A DNA stretch of 64,000 bases from Pelagibacteraceae bacterium AG-430-I06 (lineage in GTDB: Bacteria > Pseudomonadota > Alphaproteobacteria > Pelagibacterales > Pelagibacteraceae), in assembly GCA_003209895.1 (NCBI GenBank), contig QCOH01000004.1:1-64000 (forward strand), given 5' to 3'. The notes beneath the pieces are model-generated. The model worked only from the letters and a program-made list of their open reading frames with translations. It searched no databases and was not told the DNA's origin. Position numbers and translations under genes: made by a program. This document shows, one piece after another, positions 2 through 19,721 of this stretch. Position 1 is the stretch's first letter. Each line of letters opens with the position of its first letter.

Positions 2-925
2 TTTGAAGAACTTAAGAAAATTAATAAAAGCTTAATGGACTTTTCGCCAGATCTATTTATAGCTATTGGCGGAGGTTCAGTTTTAGATTACGGAAAAATT
101 GCCAATGTTTTTCTTTATAAAAATATAAAGAAACAAAAAATAATTTCAGGAAAAAATACTTTTAAAAAAAATTATAAACTTATTGCTATACCTACAACAG
201 CTGGTTCGGGAGCAGAAGTAACAAGTAATGCAGTAATATATGTAAACAAAAAAAAATATTCTATAGAAAATCAAAAAATTATGCCTGACTATTATTTTTT
301 AATACCTGAATTGTTGATTAAAGTACCGAAAAAAGTAAAAGCTTCTTCTGGATTTGATGCAATTGCGCAGGCTATTGAGTCAATGATATCAAAAAGATCG
401 AATAGTATAAGTTTTAAATTTGCAAAAAAATCATTAAAAATTTCTTTAAAAAATTTTATAAATTATATTGAGAGGCCGAATTTAAAAAATACAAAAGATA
501 TGTGCCTTGCAGCTAATTTTTGTGGAAAAGCAATTAATATATCAAAAACAACAGCACCCCACGCTGTTTCTTACCCTTTTACCTCAATATATAAATTAAG
601 TCATGGTCACGCCGTTTCCTTAAATTTTGAAAAGTTTTTAAAATTTAATTTTATCAATATGAGTCGTGCAAAATGTAAATTTAATTTAAAAAATCGCTAT
701 AAAAGTATATTTAAATTAATTGGTGTGAGAGATATATTGGAATTTGAAAATTATATAAAAAAAGTTAAAAAAAAGGCTGGCTTAGAAACTAATTTAAAAT
801 TGTTAAATATAAATTTAAAAGAAAATATTAATAAGATTGTATCTGGTATAAATATTAAGCGCCTAAACAACAATCCTGTAAATTTAACAAAACAAGATGT
901 AAAGAGAATCCTTTTAAAGCCTTGA
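2..925 (+). CDS. Iron-containing alcohol dehydrogenase, phosphonoacetaldehyde-reductase-like (5'-truncated by window edge)
   Basis: Group III iron-dependent alcohol dehydrogenase. The reading frame is open from base 2, so the first listed ATG (base 35) is internal and the N-terminus lies outside the window. Seen: the nucleotide-binding GGGS motif near the start, PTTAGSGAE around residue 53 of the listed ORF, an acidic metal ligand in GFDA (about 108), and histidines in KTTAPHAVSYP (176) and SHGHAVS (190-192). The usual second ligand His of DAxxH is Gln here (DAIAQ). From memory, the KAINISKTTAPHA...HGHAV block and the Gln are typical of phosphonoacetaldehyde reductases that make 2-hydroxyethylphosphonate after PEP mutase and phosphonopyruvate decarboxylase. 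Those two genes would have to lie upstream. Alternative: another sugar or alditol Fe-ADH, such as KdnB. Family is sure, substrate is inferred. Confidence 0.8.
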   Translation, partial: FEELKKINKSLMDFSPDLFIAIGGGSVLDYGKIANVFLYKNIKKQKIISGKNTFKKNYKLIAIPTTAGSGAEVTSNAVIYVNKKKYSIENQKIMPDYYFLIPELLIKVPKKVKASSGFDAIAQAIESMISKRSNSISFKFAKKSLKISLKNFINYIERPNLKNTKDMCLAANFCGKAINISKTTAPHAVSYPFTSIYKLSHGHAVSLNFEKFLKFNFINMSRAKCKFNLKNRYKSIFKLIGVRDILEFENYIKKVKKKAGLETNLKLLNINLKENINKIVSGINIKRLNNNPVNLTKQDVKRILLKP

Positions 926-929
926 TAAA

Positions 930-1670
930 ATGAATAAATTTAATAAAAAATACTCTGAAAATGGTTTTCTTATAGAAAAAAATTATTTTAATAAAGATGA
1001 TGTTAATAAAATCACTAATGAAATTCAAAACCTTAAAAAGAATGTCGATTTATATTACGATAAAAAAGGAAAACTTAGAAGAATCGAAAGACTTTATGAC
1101 AAAGGTGAGTCTTTAAATTTAGCAAATAGTAAAATTATGGATTTATTAAAAAAAATCTTTGAAACAAGTTTCACTATATTTAAAGATAAGTTTAATGCTA
1201 AGCCTCCGGGAGGAGAGGGTTTTTTTGCACATTATGATGGTATTTTTAAATTTAGAAATGAAAAAAATGAATTAAAAAAAGGTTGGTATGAGTATGGAAA
1301 TAAATTTGTAAATGTTTTGATAGCTCTCGATCAATTTGATGAAACAAATGGAACTATTGAAATAGCTAAAGCCGACGAGGGTAATTTTGATGAACTTTTC
1401 TTAAACACAAAAAAAAATGGGACACCTGATATTTTACCAGAGATTGAAAAAAAACTTAAATTTAATCCAATGAATTTAAATGTTGGTGATGTTGTTATCT
1501 TTAATAATACATGTCCACATAGATCTAAAAAGAACAATTCTAACAGTGATCGTAAATCTCTTTACTATACATATACACCGCTTGAATTAGGGTCTAAATA
1601 CGATGAGTATTTTAATGATAAATTAAAAAGTAAAAATACCACAAGTAAATCGCTCAGCGGAGATTTGTAA
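930..1670 (+). CDS. Phytanoyl-CoA dioxygenase (PhyH)-family Fe(II)/2-oxoglutarate oxygenase
   Basis: A 246-residue PhyH-like double-stranded beta-helix oxygenase. The facial triad is visible: HYD (HxD) in the middle, a distal His in TCPHRS, and a following Arg (DRKSLYYTYTPL) that would bind 2-oxoglutarate. It starts 4 bp after the Fe-ADH stop, so the two are probably co-transcribed. Next to a phosphonoacetaldehyde-reductase-like gene it could hydroxylate a hydroxyethylphosphonate-type intermediate or a sugar. PhyH-family oxygenases such as DhpA are known in phosphonate pathways. Substrate is inference; the fold and cofactor use are well supported by the motifs. Confidence 0.8.
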   Translation: MNKFNKKYSENGFLIEKNYFNKDDVNKITNEIQNLKKNVDLYYDKKGKLRRIERLYDKGESLNLANSKIMDLLKKIFETSFTIFKDKFNAKPPGGEGFFAHYDGIFKFRNEKNELKKGWYEYGNKFVNVLIALDQFDETNGTIEIAKADEGNFDELFLNTKKNGTPDILPEIEKKLKFNPMNLNVGDVVIFNNTCPHRSKKNNSNSDRKSLYYTYTPLELGSKYDEYFNDKLKSKNTTSKSLSGDL

Positions 1671-1704: not shown

Positions 1705-2241
1705 ATGAAAAAAATAAAAATTAATCACAGAAAAGGTATTTTATTTTTCATTCAAGGTTTGTCTGGTTCTGGAAAAACTGTGATTTCTAAAAAAATTAAA
1801 AAAGAAATTTCAAGAAAATATGGCCCAACAATTCTTATAAGCGGCGATAATCTTAGAAAAATTTTTGAACTTAATGATTACAGTTATAATGGAAGATTAT
1901 CTAATTCAATTAAATTTCGTAAGTTTTCTAAACTTATTACAAATCAAAAAATAAATCTCATATTTAATGTTGTTGGATTAATGCATTCTACTAGAAAATG
2001 GTATAGAAAAAATATTGATAATTATATTGAGATATTTGTAAAAGCTGACTTAAAAAAAATAATCAAATTTAAAAAAAAGAAAATTTATCATTCTAAAAAA
2101 AATAAAAATATTGTAGGTATATCGATAAAACCGGAATTTCCAAAAAATCCTCATATAATAATAAAAAATGATTTTAAAAAGCCGTCAAACTATTTAGCAA
2201 AACTCCTTATTGAAAAAATTAATTTATTAATAAAAAATTAA
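1705..2241 (+). CDS. Adenylylsulfate (APS) kinase-like P-loop kinase
   Basis: A 178-residue CysC-fold kinase. It has a Walker A motif GLSGSGKT (residues ~19-26), SGDNLRKIF in place of the CysC DGDNVR motif, and a late NIVGISIKPEFPKNPHIII segment resembling the GIDSxYExPExPE block of APS kinases. It is slightly shorter than E. coli CysC (about 200) and several canonical residues differ. It sits in the surface-glycan island, 1.7 kb upstream of a sulfotransferase-like gene, so making PAPS for sulfation is the simplest reading. No ATP sulfurylase is in the window. It could instead phosphorylate another island-specific substrate. Confidence 0.7.
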   Translation: MKKIKINHRKGILFFIQGLSGSGKTVISKKIKKEISRKYGPTILISGDNLRKIFELNDYSYNGRLSNSIKFRKFSKLITNQKINLIFNVVGLMHSTRKWYRKNIDNYIEIFVKADLKKIIKFKKKKIYHSKKNKNIVGISIKPEFPKNPHIIIKNDFKKPSNYLAKLLIEKINLLIKN

Positions 2242-2252
2242 TATTAAAAAAA

Positions 2253-3963
2253 ATGGAAAAAATAAATAAGCTCAAAAATATTCTTAATATATTTCAAAAA
2301 AAACAGTTTATTTTTTTGTTTTGCTTTATGTTATTAGCAGTTTTGTTGGAGATATTAGTTCTCAAATTTTTATTAATTATTCTGAATTTCTTTTCAAATC
2401 CAGGTAACGATATAAATTCGTCTACTGTTATATTTTTACAAAACTTAAAAGGTGATTTAAGCTTCCCCTTTTTAATAATTTGTATTTTCGTAATAATTTT
2501 TTTATTAAAAACTTTAATAAATATTTTTTTAAACTTTCAAAAAGGAAAATTTTTATTTAATACAAAAGCTGATGTCAGTTTAAGGCTTATGAGGGGTTAT
2601 TTATATATGCCAAGAGTTTTTCATATGAGAACCAATACTTCAGAGTTAGTCAGAAATATTACAGTTGAAGTAGACAACCTAATGACATCATTATTAAATA
2701 TTTTAACAATAATACTAGATGCTTCAGTTTTAATTGGATTAGTAATATTTTTATGCTTCGTAAATTTTGAAATCACTATTATAAGTTTTTTTGCATTAGT
2801 GTTTTTTTCATTTTTAGTATCTGGAGTTAATAGAAAAAAAACAATTCAATTAGGAAAAAAAAAGAGTTAAAATTATACAATTAAGACTTAAAAATATCAT
2901 AGAGGCCTTGTCAGGTTCTAAAACTTTTACTATTACAGGATCTAGAGACAAGGCAATTTCGGATTTTAGTGTTAATAATTCACAACTAGCTAAATTGTCC
3001 TATAAAAATTTTTTTAGAAACGGATTACCCAAACCATTATTTGAATTATTTACAGTATTAATCATAGGTTCGTTTTTTATTTTTGTGCAACAAAAAAATT
3101 TGGAGATAAGCTCAATAATACCAACCCTAGGCGTATTTTTAGCTGCTGTATATAGATTAATCCCCTCATTTGCTAATATTATGTCAAACATACAAAGCTA
3201 CCAGTTTAACATTCAATGTGTAACAAACCTTTCAAACGATCTAGAAAAATTTAAAAATATAAAAAATATTAACCAAGAAAAAATAAATTTTATTAAAAGT
3301 TTGGATTTTAACGACGTTACTTTTTCTTATGGCAGTAACGAAAGAAGCACGGTTTTTAAAAATATAAATATTTCAATAAAAAAAGGATCAAAAATTGGAA
3401 TAGTTGGGCCAAGCGGTTCTGGAAAAAGTACATTTCTTGACATATTTATGGGGTTACTACCAGTTCAATCTGGTCAAGTTCTCATAGACGGAAAAAATAT
3501 AAAAAACCAAGAAAGTGGTTGGCAGAAAAATATTGGTTGTGTTCCGCAAGAAGTTTTTATCAGTGATGATACTCTTAAAAAGAATGTTGCTTTTGGGGAA
3601 TCAGATGAGAAGATTGATAATACAAAATTATTGAGAGCAATTGAACTTGCTGGACTGAAAAATTTTGTAGAGAACTTAGATTTAAAGGAGAATACTATAA
3701 TTGGTGAGCGTGGGTCGAGAGTATCCGGCGGCCAAAGACAAAGAATAGGAATAGCCAGAGCTTTTTATAACAATCCCGATCTTCTAATATTAGATGAAGC
3801 AACAAATGCGCTTGATGAGCAAATAGAAAAAAAAATTATAGATGAAATTTTTTCAACAGGTATTAATCGTACTATTATATTTGTAAGTCATAATTACCAA
3901 AATCTACGACACTGCGATTCTATTTACAAAATAGAAAATCAAAGACTATCATTGATAGAATAA
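2253..3963 (+). pseudogene. MsbA-type ABC exporter (permease-ATPase fusion) interrupted by a +1 frameshift in an A9 run
   Basis: Two ORFs, 2253-2870 (frame 3) and 2908-3963 (frame 1), together form one ~569-residue half-transporter. The first holds the N-terminal transmembrane helices. The second holds the rest of the membrane domain and the ATPase: Walker A GPSGSGKST, signature SGGQRQR, Walker B LLILDEA and switch His (FVSHN). The break lies at TTAGG-A9-GAG near 2852-2862. Removing one A restores continuous reading through KKRVKIIQLRLKNIIEALSGS. It probably exports a lipid-linked glycan or a product of neighbouring genes. The interruption may be a sequencing error, a real mutation, phase variation, or an A9 transcript-slippage site. 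Only the sequence state is certain. Confidence 0.85.
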
Positions 3964-3964
3964 T

Positions 3965-5056
3965 ATGAAAATTTTGATTATTTTAACTGGTGGTAGATCA
4001 GGATCTGGTCTCTTACAAAGTCTTTTCGACGGACACAAAGAAATTCTACAATTTCCGGGTGAATTATTATTTACAGATGAGATAAAAAAAATATTTAAGG
4101 AAAATTCTCCTCCTAAATTTGTAAATTCATTTATTAATTTTAATCAGCACTTTTTTGACTCAAGGTTAAACACAATAGAACGACATAATAAACTAGGATC
4201 ATTAAAAAACGAATTTTATAAAGTAGATAAAAATAACTTTAAAAAAAGATTTCTTAAATTATTTAAAATATCAAAAAAAACTAACCTAGACAAATTGATA
4301 TGTTTACATAAAGCATACGAAGAAAAAGCGAATAATTTATCCAAAAAAAAAGTTATAGTTTTACATATTCACGATTTCATTTTCTTTAAGAATTATCTTC
4401 AAATTTTTAAAATAAAAGAAAATACAAAAATTTTCCTTACGATGAGAGACCCAATCGTTAGCCTATGTTCAACAATTAATAATTGGTTGAAATATAAAGA
4501 TGGTATTTATTTAACACCAAGAACTTTAGAAAGAAATTTTGATACGCATTTCAATATTTTTAATAATTTACATTTTTTAAGAAAAAAAATAAAAGTAATT
4601 AAATTGGAAAAATTACATCAATCAAGTCGAGATACTTTAAAAAAAATTTGCAAACATCTAAATATTAAATTTTCTCAATCACTTTTAAAATCTACATATC
4701 ATGGAAAAAAATGGTGGGGCGATTGTATCAGTCAAAAATACTTAAACGGGTTGAACCCAAAATTTAAAAATAAATTTGATGAAGATTTATTTAGTATTAA
4801 GGAATTAAAATTTCTTGAAAAGAAAATTCTTCCAGTTTTAAAAAAATATAAATATCCAATAAGAAGTGAGATCAATAGTGAAATAAATATTTTATATTTT
4901 TACCCATTCGGATTTGAAAAAAAAATTTGGGCGAAAACTTTGAAAAAAAATAAGTTAAAAACATCTTTATCTATACCTTATTTTTATATCAGAAGAATAC
5001 TTTTATTAGGTAAAAAAAATATTTTTTTACAAAATAATTTACCTAATGAAATTTAA
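3965..5056 (+). CDS. Sulfotransferase-like protein
   Basis: A 363-residue protein with a PAPS-dependent sulfotransferase signature. A 5'-phosphosulfate-binding loop lies at the N-terminus (TGGRSGSGLLQSLFDGH, residues ~8-24). A 3'-phosphate-binding RDP...S block (MRDPIVSLCSTINNWL) lies mid-protein. It starts 1 bp after the exporter frame and shares direction with an APS-kinase-like gene upstream, which supports sulfation of a surface glycan. The C-terminal ~90 residues are basic and not recognised. The acceptor is unknown. The family call rests on the two motifs and the overall length. Confidence 0.72.
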   Translation: MKILIILTGGRSGSGLLQSLFDGHKEILQFPGELLFTDEIKKIFKENSPPKFVNSFINFNQHFFDSRLNTIERHNKLGSLKNEFYKVDKNNFKKRFLKLFKISKKTNLDKLICLHKAYEEKANNLSKKKVIVLHIHDFIFFKNYLQIFKIKENTKIFLTMRDPIVSLCSTINNWLKYKDGIYLTPRTLERNFDTHFNIFNNLHFLRKKIKVIKLEKLHQSSRDTLKKICKHLNIKFSQSLLKSTYHGKKWWGDCISQKYLNGLNPKFKNKFDEDLFSIKELKFLEKKILPVLKKYKYPIRSEINSEINILYFYPFGFEKKIWAKTLKKNKLKTSLSIPYFYIRRILLLGKKNIFLQNNLPNEI

Positions 5057-15810: not shown

Positions 15811-16860
15811 ATGGGCACTATAAAATTACCAACTAAATCAATCGACTTTTTTAAAAGTAAGCAAGATAAAATATTTAATACTGGAAGTTTAGCCGAGGGT
15901 CCATGGAACGAAGCCTTATCAAAAAAAATTAGAGCAATAACTGGTTCAAAAAATGCTGTTTGTTTTAACTCAAATGGAAGTGGTCTTGTTTCCTTATTAT
16001 TAATTTACAAAGAGTATTATGGAAGAACTGACATAATGATTCAATCAAATACAATGTATGGAGTTAAAACTATAACTGGTACAGCAGGATATAAAATTGT
16101 TGGATATATAGACTGTCAATTAACAACTTTAATGCCAAGTTTTAACGATTTAAAAAAGTCTGTAAAAAATTATAAAGGAGATGTTAAAAAATTAGTTATA
16201 ATGTTGAGTGATATTGGAGGAATAATAAATCCAGATATTGAAAAAATAGCCAAATTTTGTAAAGAAAAAAATATTATCTTGTTAGAAGATGCAGCACACA
16301 GTTTTGGCTCAAATTTAAATAAAAAATTTGCCGGCACATTTGGAAACGCTGGTGTTTATTCCTATTATTCCACAAAAGCAATTTTTGCAGGAGAAGGGGG
16401 TATTGCAGTAACAAATGATAATAATGTAGGAAACTTACTTAAGGATTTTAATGCATACGACAGATTTAAACAAAAAATGCCAATAGGATGTAATTTTCGT
16501 TTAACAGAACTCCAAGCTTTAATGATTTATTCAGTTGTAAAAGAGTACGAGGAAATAATTAAAAACAAATCAAAAACTGCTCAAAAGTATTTGGAAACAT
16601 GTAATTCGTTAAAAATTAAATATATAAGTCAAAATACTAACGACAATATTGGGAATTATTATAAATTTACAATAATTTCACCAAAAAAAAAGATATCTGA
16701 TTTACTTCCCAATTTAAAAACTACTACTTCAAAAGTTTATGATTATGCATTGGGTAATTGTAAAGATTTACCGTCTCAACACACATGCCTTCCAATATGG
16801 TTTAGTTTAGAGGAGTCAATCTCAGAAAAAGTAGTTCAAGAATTAAAAAGCTGTTTTTAA
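15811..16860 (+). CDS. DegT/DnrJ/EryC1/StrS-family PLP aminotransferase (third, divergent)
   Basis: A 349-residue DegT-family protein. The PLP-binding Lys is in YYSTKAIFAGEGGIAVT, and the ring Asp in LLEDAAHSFGS. NFRLTELQALMIYSVV matches the substrate/dimer helix. It is clearly more divergent than the other two: it begins MGTIKLPTKSIDFFKSKQDKIFNTGSLAEGP, and the usual loop before the phosphate site is altered to FNSNGSGLVSLLL. It pairs with the FAD oxidoreductase upstream and its stop overlaps the convergent O-antigen gene. It is the last + strand gene of the island. Confidence 0.85.
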   Translation: MGTIKLPTKSIDFFKSKQDKIFNTGSLAEGPWNEALSKKIRAITGSKNAVCFNSNGSGLVSLLLIYKEYYGRTDIMIQSNTMYGVKTITGTAGYKIVGYIDCQLTTLMPSFNDLKKSVKNYKGDVKKLVIMLSDIGGIINPDIEKIAKFCKEKNIILLEDAAHSFGSNLNKKFAGTFGNAGVYSYYSTKAIFAGEGGIAVTNDNNVGNLLKDFNAYDRFKQKMPIGCNFRLTELQALMIYSVVKEYEEIIKNKSKTAQKYLETCNSLKIKYISQNTNDNIGNYYKFTIISPKKKISDLLPNLKTTTSKVYDYALGNCKDLPSQHTCLPIWFSLEESISEKVVQELKSCF

Positions 16861-18212
16861 TTTCTCTTTGTTTTTCCCCTGATACCATTTATCAATCCTA
16901 ATATAAAAAAAATAAATGAAGCACTCGATGTTGAAAAGAAACTTCCAGAACTTTTAAGCGGAAAGAATTCTGCAAATAAAATTATCAAAAAACAGATTGC
17001 AACAAGCTTATCTCTCTCATTAAAATTTTTCAAATTATATAATTTATTTTTTACAAGAAAAAATAGTCCTAATAAAAGAATCATGGTTCCTATCAATCCA
17101 GTATCGTTTAGTAATTCTAAGTAATAATTATGTGGATGCGAAGAACAAACTCTATTTGGTAAATGTAGTTTACTTTTGCAGTTTAATCTAAACGATTTTA
17201 AGCCTCCTCCAAAAAATAAATTATCAGTCAAAATATCATAGGAAGTTAAATAAATTGGTATATGACCACTTCCAATGGGCGCAAAGGTGTATTTCTCTCT
17301 GAGTTTCTCTCTATCTTTTCCTTTTGCATACTCTTTGACGAAATATTGATCTTTTTTATTTTCCAGTTCAGGATATTTTTCTTTAGAATATTTTAAAAAA
17401 TTCTCAAATAAATTTAATGAGTGGTAATAATAATTACTATAGTGTTTTTTAAATTCTAGATTATTATTAAAAGTAAAGATGAAAATTAAGGTACAAAAAA
17501 TTAAACTAATGAAAATTTTAACTCTTAATTTATCTAGAAATGTCATCATTAATATCATTGAGATAGTAAACAAAATTAAAGGCATTCTATTACCAGAAAA
17601 TAAAATCCCTGAAAAAAAAATTATTATAAGTATAAAAAAAAGTATATTTTTTTTTGAGTCAAGCTTATTAAAAACAAAAGGTATACAGATCAAAGCTAAT
17701 AACGAAAACTTTTGCATATACCCTCCAGCTATCAGTTCCTCCCCAAAAATACTAGAGTTATGTCTACCTAAACTTTCTAAACCAAAAATATTTTTGCCAG
17801 AAAGTGTCTGAATAATAATATCAACTCCGATAAAAGACATTATTAAAGCACAACTAATTAATAGTAATTTTATATTTAAATCTTTGTTTTCAATCATGAA
17901 TGTTAAAACTAAAAAAAGGATAAGGTATCTTAAGTATAATAAAGATTTTAAAAAACCATCATAGTTTACATTTAAAAAATAATTGAAAAAAGAAACAATT
18001 ATTATAAATAAGAAAAATACAAATATAAAAAAATTTGATTTAATAAGATAAAACTTCAAAAATTTTTTTTTATAAGCAAAAATACCAAATAAACATATCA
18101 ATAAAACATTAATGTTTATTATAAAGTTTCCTGCAAGAGCTGCTAAGGGAAACAGAAATATCGAAACATTTAGTGCTGCAATATTTACCCTGGATATGTC
18201 TAATAATTTCAT
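16857..18212 (-). CDS. O-antigen ligase/polymerase-like membrane protein (WaaL/Wzy family)
   Basis: A 451-residue polytopic inner-membrane protein with about 10-12 hydrophobic segments. A large loop contains the diagnostic Wzy_C-type stretch SHPHNYYLELLNDTGLIGTMILLLG. O-antigen ligases and polymerases use such a loop His to join undecaprenyl-linked glycans. It is the only island gene on the minus strand. It converges on the third DegT gene (stop codons overlap) and starts only 24 bp from tRNA-Val. It is therefore probably separately transcribed, from near the tRNA/5S end. Polymerase versus ligase cannot be decided. Confidence 0.82.
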   Translation of the reverse strand: MKLLDISRVNIAALNVSIFLFPLAALAGNFIININVLLICLFGIFAYKKKFLKFYLIKSNFFIFVFFLFIIIVSFFNYFLNVNYDGFLKSLLYLRYLILFLVLTFMIENKDLNIKLLLISCALIMSFIGVDIIIQTLSGKNIFGLESLGRHNSSIFGEELIAGGYMQKFSLLALICIPFVFNKLDSKKNILFFILIIIFFSGILFSGNRMPLILFTISMILMMTFLDKLRVKIFISLIFCTLIFIFTFNNNLEFKKHYSNYYYHSLNLFENFLKYSKEKYPELENKKDQYFVKEYAKGKDREKLREKYTFAPIGSGHIPIYLTSYDILTDNLFFGGGLKSFRLNCKSKLHLPNRVCSSHPHNYYLELLNDTGLIGTMILLLGLFFLVKNKLYNLKNFNERDKLVAICFLIILFAEFFPLKSSGSFFSTSSASFIFFILGLINGIRGKTKRN

Positions 18213-18634: not shown

Positions 18635-19721
18635 ATGAACGTTGGGTCAACAAAAGAAACAAGTCCAGAAAAAAGAATTTCAATTACTCCAGATACAAGC
18701 AAAAGCTTTCTAAACTTAGGATTAAAAGTCTTAATTGAAAAAGGATATGGTGCAAGCCTAGGTTATGACGATAGTGATTATAAAAATAATGGAGCAGAAG
18801 TTTTAAATAGTCCTGATGAAGTTTTATCTAAATCTGATTTAATTTGTAAAGTTAATTTTCCAACAGAAAAAGAGATGGAACTATTTAAAGAAAATTCTAA
18901 TCTTATTGTTTCTAATTACAATCCAGATAAAGATAAAAAATTTTTAAAAAATAAATTTAAAATTTTCGCATTAAATTTACTTCCTAGAATTACACGGGCT
19001 CAATCTATGGATGTTTTATCTTCACAAGCCAATTTAGCAGGTTACAGGGCAGTAATCGAGTCAATCTACGAATATCAAAAAAGCAGTTCCGATGATGATG
19101 ACAGCAGCAGGCACAGTTCCTGCAGCAAAAGTTTTAATAGTAGGTGCTGGAGTTGCTGGCTTACAAGCAATAGCAACAGCAAAAAGATTAGGAGCTATAG
19201 TAACTGCAACAGACGTTAGAATAACCGCAAAAGAACAGGTAGAAAGTTTAGGAGGTAAATTTTTAACAGTAGAGGGTTCTGAGGATTTAGAAACGAAAGG
19301 TGGTTATGCCAAGGAAGCAAGCGAAGATTTTAAAAAGAAACAAGCTGAAATGTTAGAAAAAGCGGCATCAAAAAGTGATATTATTATTTGCACAGCGCTA
19401 ATACCCGGAAGAGCTGCACCAAGAATAATAAATGAAAAAATGATCGACAGCATGAAATCAGGATCAGTTATTTTTGACCTAGCAGTTTCCCAAGGTGGCA
19501 ATTCTGCCTATTCTGAAATTGATAAAATTGTTGACAAAAAAGGTGTAAAAATAATTGGAATATCAAATGTTATGAACAAATTACCTTTAACAGCATCAAA
19601 TTTATATTCAAAAAATTTATTTAGCTTTGTAAGAAATCTTTATAGTAGAGACAAAAAGCAATTTGTTATTAATCTTGAGGATGAAATAATTAAAAATACT
19701 TTATTAAAGGAGCAAAATTAA
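18635..19721 (+). pseudogene. pntA: NAD(P) transhydrogenase subunit alpha part 1, PntAA, split by a one-base frameshift
   Basis: The soluble NAD(H)-binding subunit of the proton-translocating transhydrogenase. ORF 18635-19219 gives the N-terminal half (STKETSPEKRISITPDT start, as in alanine dehydrogenase/PntA). ORF 19092-19721 gives VLIVGAGVAGLQAIATAKRLGA and the C-terminus. In TATC-A6-GCAG near 19077, deleting one A restores EYQKAVPMMMTAAGTVPAAK, the expected family sequence, for a ~361-residue protein. pntAB and pntB downstream are intact, and a whole transhydrogenase would be pointless without this subunit. A sequencing or assembly indel is therefore the likeliest cause, though a real mutation cannot be excluded. 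Confidence 0.9.

Follow-up and report, generated by a model that had tools for sequence, protein, structure and literature searches.

SAR11 bacteria have been estimated to be major marine producers of phosphonates (PMC8931226), and phosphonate genes lying beside glycan and ligase genes have already been described in this group (PMC8931226, PMC9381506). In the available portions of these reports, phpC is syntenic among phosphonate producers (PMC9381506) and, within the phosphonate glycan clusters of SAR11 and Prochlorococcus, the Pelagibacterales carry pepM, phosphonopyruvate decarboxylase (Ppd) and a phosphonoacetaldehyde reductase beside glycan assembly and O-oligosaccharyltransferase-type genes (PMC8931226), as in the locus described here. 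The chemical form of a phosphonate decides which organisms degrade it and whether methane is released.

The window analysed here covers 64,000 nucleotides from the first base of contig C4 onwards in Pelagibacteraceae bacterium AG-430-I06, whose genome is assembled in 27 contigs and is 78% complete. We consider it very likely that this genome carries a cluster for phosphonate biosynthesis and attachment within a SAR11-type surface-glycan island, split over contigs C14 and C4. Two features of the window, a PhyH hydroxylase and an APS-kinase-like gene, find no mention for SAR11 or Prochlorococcus clusters in the available portions of PMC8931226 and PMC9381506. Against those portions, what is new is the hydroxylase clade with its split into amino and hydroxy branches, and the occurrence of the APS-kinase-like gene where the genome has no ATP sulfurylase. 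The dedicated hydroxylase is more of a surprise than the rest of the gene set. The features discussed below are as follows.

2 to 925, forward strand: predicted phosphonoacetaldehyde reductase, an Fe-dependent alcohol dehydrogenase (Fe-ADH), PhpC-like, with about 65 N-terminal residues lost at the contig edge (Pfam, tree, motifs).
930 to 1670, forward strand: PhyH-family Fe(II)/2-oxoglutarate oxygenase, PhnY*-like, a proposed phosphonate alpha-hydroxylase (Pfam, NCBIfam, pepM co-occurrence, AF2).
1705 to 2241, forward strand: stand-alone APS-kinase-like kinase (APS_kinase, 63 bits), which may act on a nucleotide-activated phosphonate.
2253 to 3963, forward strand: PglK/MsbA-like ABC flippase, its frame broken once (2253-2870 and 2908-3963).
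3965 to 5056, forward strand: sulfotransferase-like protein (Sulfotransfer_3, Pfam, 30 bits).
16857 to 18212, reverse strand: O-antigen ligase or O-oligosaccharyltransferase-like protein (Wzy_C), part of the surface-glycan context.

The first gene encodes 307 residues of an Fe-ADH that is open at its 5' end (Pfam Fe-ADH 83 bits, ADH_Fe_C 73 bits). An earlier note, made from the DNA letters, had picked out in this truncated protein the KTTAPHA and HGHAV blocks and a DAxxQ substitution, and all three are present, the last as DAIAQAIE. The great majority of the PepM-linked ADHs that we compared share the DAxxQ motif, apart from a SAR11/SAR116 subgroup with DGIKH at this place; the five E. coli Fe-ADHs in the comparison all read DAxxH. 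In a tree where PepM-linked ADHs and a Segatella copy stood in for PhpC and FomC, the window protein is nested within the PepM-linked enzymes (98% SH-aLRT) and apart from E. coli FucO, EutG, AdhE, YiaY and YqhD, in line with the phosphonate assignment that the note had proposed over FucO. The Segatella plasmid copy, which NCBI names phosphonoacetaldehyde reductase, shares DAxxQ and falls outside the SAR11 set in a quick tree. The solved structure of KdnB matches the window protein with only 45 bits. Against TIGR03405 (Phn_Fe-ADH) the truncated window copy scores 118 bits, below the curated cut-off of 424. Locus L151, labelled in the tree as a non-phosphonate ADH, was rejected as a counterexample because its gene sits after PepM-Ppd. 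No other Fe-ADH was found in the 78% complete assembly of this genome. By family and context the prediction that the enzyme reduces phosphonoacetaldehyde to 2-hydroxyethylphosphonate (HEP) is well supported.

The earlier note had also placed the gene at the left edge of the island. This edge is where contig C4 starts, an assembly break, and we rejected it as the true border; glycan genes occur on both contigs and run on to C14 of the same assembly. C14 ends inside a Ppd gene, directly 3' of a Fom1-type cytidylyltransferase-PEP mutase fusion, so the PEP mutase and Ppd for which the note had advised looking upstream are both encoded in this genome, at the very end of C14 that is expected to adjoin C4. 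Compared with full-length relatives, the Fe-ADH on C4 lacks its first 65 residues and the Ppd on C14 its last 87, and a search of all other contigs of the assembly found no copy of either missing part. In a set of 58 related marine loci (57 from Pelagibacterales and one from SAR116), picked by PepM similarity or PhyH so that the fractions are no unbiased census, Ppd is present in 54 and this type of Fe-ADH in 43, mostly as the first and second genes after PepM. Since the truncations are complementary, the missing parts are nowhere else and Ppd is followed by Fe-ADH in most of these loci, we infer that the contigs join, giving a predicted gene order of PepM, Ppd, gap, Fe-ADH, PhyH and kinase with a gap estimated at about 0.47 kb. 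The GC content of C14 (25.8%) is closer to the 26.3% of the window's initial 16 kb than to the 31.4% of its remainder. The join is a prediction, which leaves room for a different arrangement, with the Fe-ADH acting on sugars or alditols in the glycan island and the C14 phosphonate genes forming a separate locus. The tree placement and the three motifs, together with the conserved Ppd-FeADH adjacency and the complementary truncations, argue against this; we strongly disfavour such an arrangement and regard it as highly improbable.

Within a single phosphonate locus spanning both contigs, the C14 fusion would supply the first step. A search of the genome for PEP mutase gave matches at C14 8923-9699 and C5 64927-65637. 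The C5 match (PF13714) was rejected as methylisocitrate lyase-like, as it adjoins citrate synthase and has the motif EDQ..KRCGH. The C14 gene product is a protein of 437 residues in which a cytidylyltransferase domain is fused to PEP mutase; it scores 362.7 bits against TIGR02320, above the curated cut-off of 319.6, and contains the EDKxxxxxNS motif as EDKVGLKKNS. Its nearest homologues among named records are nearly all from uncultured Pelagibacteraceae (SAR11). The N-terminal domain and the cytidylyltransferase domain of Fom1 (5x3d) are 55% identical over 132 residues (174 bits), and the domain order is the same. Its identification as a Fom1-type PepM fusion, predicted to be CMP-activating, is thus well supported. 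The product of Fom1 is CMP-HEP (PMC6697681), and the likeness of the two domains suggests that the Fe-ADH product is HEP. Fom1 belongs to fosfomycin biosynthesis, whereas the C14 fusion lies within a glycan island, and unlike the fosfomycin pathway this genome has no Fom3-like methylase, only a distant radical SAM match of 27 bits, on which account a B12 radical SAM methylase was rejected as a cluster member. The Ppd on C14, which has lost about 24% of its length to the contig break, scores 309.4 bits against TIGR03297 (cut-off 312.5). By family and context the assignments of the first three steps are well supported: PEP mutase would form phosphonopyruvate, Ppd would convert this to phosphonoacetaldehyde, and the window Fe-ADH would reduce the aldehyde to HEP.

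The PhyH gene begins 4 bp 3' of the Fe-ADH, as the earlier note had seen, and is intact, encoding 246 residues with a Pfam PhyH (PF05721) score of 53 bits, above cut-off. The facial triad His101, Asp103 and His197 and also Arg208 are invariant in 20 homologues. Its best NCBIfam match is the methylphosphonate hydroxylase PhnY* (NF052437), at 60 bits, far below the cut-off of 500; the same model is matched by all 20 relatives in the alignment, while control PhyH proteins whose loci have no pepM find their best match in other families. PhnY*, an alpha-hydroxylase of 2-aminoethylphosphonate (2-AEP) or methylphosphonate, is likewise a PhyH-type 2-oxoglutarate oxygenase and the nearest curated model, but it accompanies PhnZ catabolism, whereas the window enzyme sits in a biosynthetic cluster. 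DhpA, the HEP hydroxylase of dehydrophos biosynthesis, which converts HEP to 1,2-dihydroxyethylphosphonate, is another PhyH-type 2-oxoglutarate oxygenase, likened here by family and reaction rather than by sequence comparison. The AF2 model (pLDDT 92) has a fold resembling PhyH-type proline, leucine and ectoine hydroxylases; reading the substrate from this comparison was rejected, as the matches are generic PhyH hydroxylases that do not fix it.

The distribution of the oxygenase is informative. A survey of 397 genomes from the order gave strong PhyH matches in 15, and 14 of the 15 also have the PepM fusion, itself present in 42 of the 397 (p=3e-14; p=3e-12 with two seed genomes left out). Eleven SAR11 clusters combine PhyH with the Fe-ADH and six others combine it with a class V aminotransferase; none shows the opposite pairing, and on the PhyH tree this split is a single change. 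The Fe-ADH clusters are of the hydroxyethyl type and the aminotransferase clusters of the aminoethyl type, each with a separate set of PhyH proteins. As a PhnY*-type dioxygenase, there called phnY', acts on 2-AEP in the account given in the available part of PMC9381506, an amino-type and a hydroxy-type substrate would fit the two groups, and so clean a split of the oxygenase yields two testable substrates. It is possible instead that plain HEP, or methylphosphonate at a later stage, is the product and that the oxygenase modifies a different part of the glycan. PhyH is absent from most comparable SAR11 pepM-Ppd-FeADH clusters, from which hydroxylation appears to be optional, and there are SAR11 genomes that have other PhyH enzymes but no pepM. 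However, the clade of the window enzyme hardly occurs outside pepM genomes and tracks the amino or hydroxy branch, the closest named family, PhnY*, hydroxylates phosphonates, and in L018, L056, L028 and L029 the gene lies between or beside pepM and Ppd, making a plain HEP product quite unlikely in our view. We favour alpha-hydroxylation of HEP by the window PhyH, probably to 1,2-dihydroxyethylphosphonate. Of the hydroxyethyl- or dihydroxyethylphosphonate surface decoration suggested in the earlier note, the HEP part is therefore well supported, and the dihydroxy form is proposed from PhyH only. If true, alpha-hydroxylation would yield a phosphonate beyond those considered in the surveys, going by the available portions of PMC8931226 and PMC9381506.

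Downstream, the Fom1-type domain would activate the phosphonate as a CMP ester, possibly before or after hydroxylation, and a transferase may then move the activated group onto a glycan acceptor. The kinase and sulfotransferase-like genes are candidates for these later steps. The kinase scores 65.7 bits against the adenylylsulfate kinase model TIGR00455, below its cut-off of 138.7. Among 397 genomes, 44 have a stand-alone kinase of this type and CysD is found in none of these, while a longer, fused-type frame is found in 13, of which 11 have CysD. Fifteen genomes have both the stand-alone kinase and PepM, none with CysD, and in 11 of these the two lie on the same contig, 1.4-3.8 kb apart; the kinase is enriched with pepM (p=7e-8). 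In two pepM clusters, L037 and L056, a homologue of the sulfotransferase-like gene directly follows the APS-kinase-like gene. A single-sequence AlphaFold model of the sulfotransferase-like protein had a pLDDT of 36.5.

The Pfam names APS_kinase and Sulfotransfer_3, and a second sulfotransferase on C14, could instead point to ordinary sulfation unrelated to the phosphonate. A search for CysD or Sat (ATP sulfurylase) found neither in this genome, an absence that is weak for a 78% complete assembly taken alone, and ATP sulfurylase is present in only five of 101 relatives. Set against sulfation, this scarcity, the contrast in CysD between stand-alone and fused-type kinases and the enrichment with pepM leave it, we think, somewhat unlikely.

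A phosphonate role for the two genes has a parallel in Campylobacter, where the phosphoramidate pathway includes a cytidine diphosphoramidate kinase and the end donor is 3'-phosphorylated, CDP-phosphoramidate 3'-phosphate (PMC11800397). The Cj1415-Cj1418 pathway decorates the capsule with methyl-phosphoramidate using a kinase and a 3'-phosphate donor, much as we envisage for the window, but its group is a phosphoramidate and here it would be a phosphonate, and the window kinase and Cj1415 are likened by role rather than by sequence comparison. We hypothesise, by this analogy, a phosphonate counterpart of PAPS-dependent sulfation. The APS-kinase-like enzyme would yield a 3'-phosphorylated CMP-phosphonate that the sulfotransferase-like enzyme passes to the glycan, with PhyH adding the alpha-hydroxyl. 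SAR11 surfaces would then bear dihydroxyethylphosphonate where the cluster is of the Fe-ADH type and a hydroxylated aminoethylphosphonate where it is of the aminotransferase type. As a complete scheme this is speculative, and we think it unlikely to hold in every part.

Several further observations concern the genes around these steps. LIC12162-type transferases at C14 6722-8419 and in L018 are alternative candidate transferases. At L003 3509-5176 (C14) a Sulfotransfer_1-type protein adjoins a fusion of APS-kinase-like and nucleotidyltransferase-like domains, possibly another activated-group system. The break in the flippase frame falls in a poly-A run near 2855-2864, where inactivation, slippage and assembly error look alike; a second break in contig C4, at 18635-19721, where a transhydrogenase-like protein appears as two overlapping frames, favours assembly indels.

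Beyond SAR11, the PepM-Ppd-FeADH order is also seen in Bacteroidota, Falkowbacteria, Woesearchaeota and Ignavibacteria, and searches of plasmid and phage collections returned only distant homologues. Five SAR11 aminotransferase-type pepM clusters (L122, L125, L128, L129 and L130) carry a B12 radical SAM protein, whose L017 homologue is similar to P-methyltransferases of the Sden_1168/PhpK families. On the Rhizobium rhizogenes plasmid pC5.7d (L174 1677-3938 and 11106-15533) a cytidylyltransferase-PhyH-LicD trio lies about 10 kb from Ppd, AEP transaminase and PepM, and its PhyH scores 140 bits against the PhnY* model.
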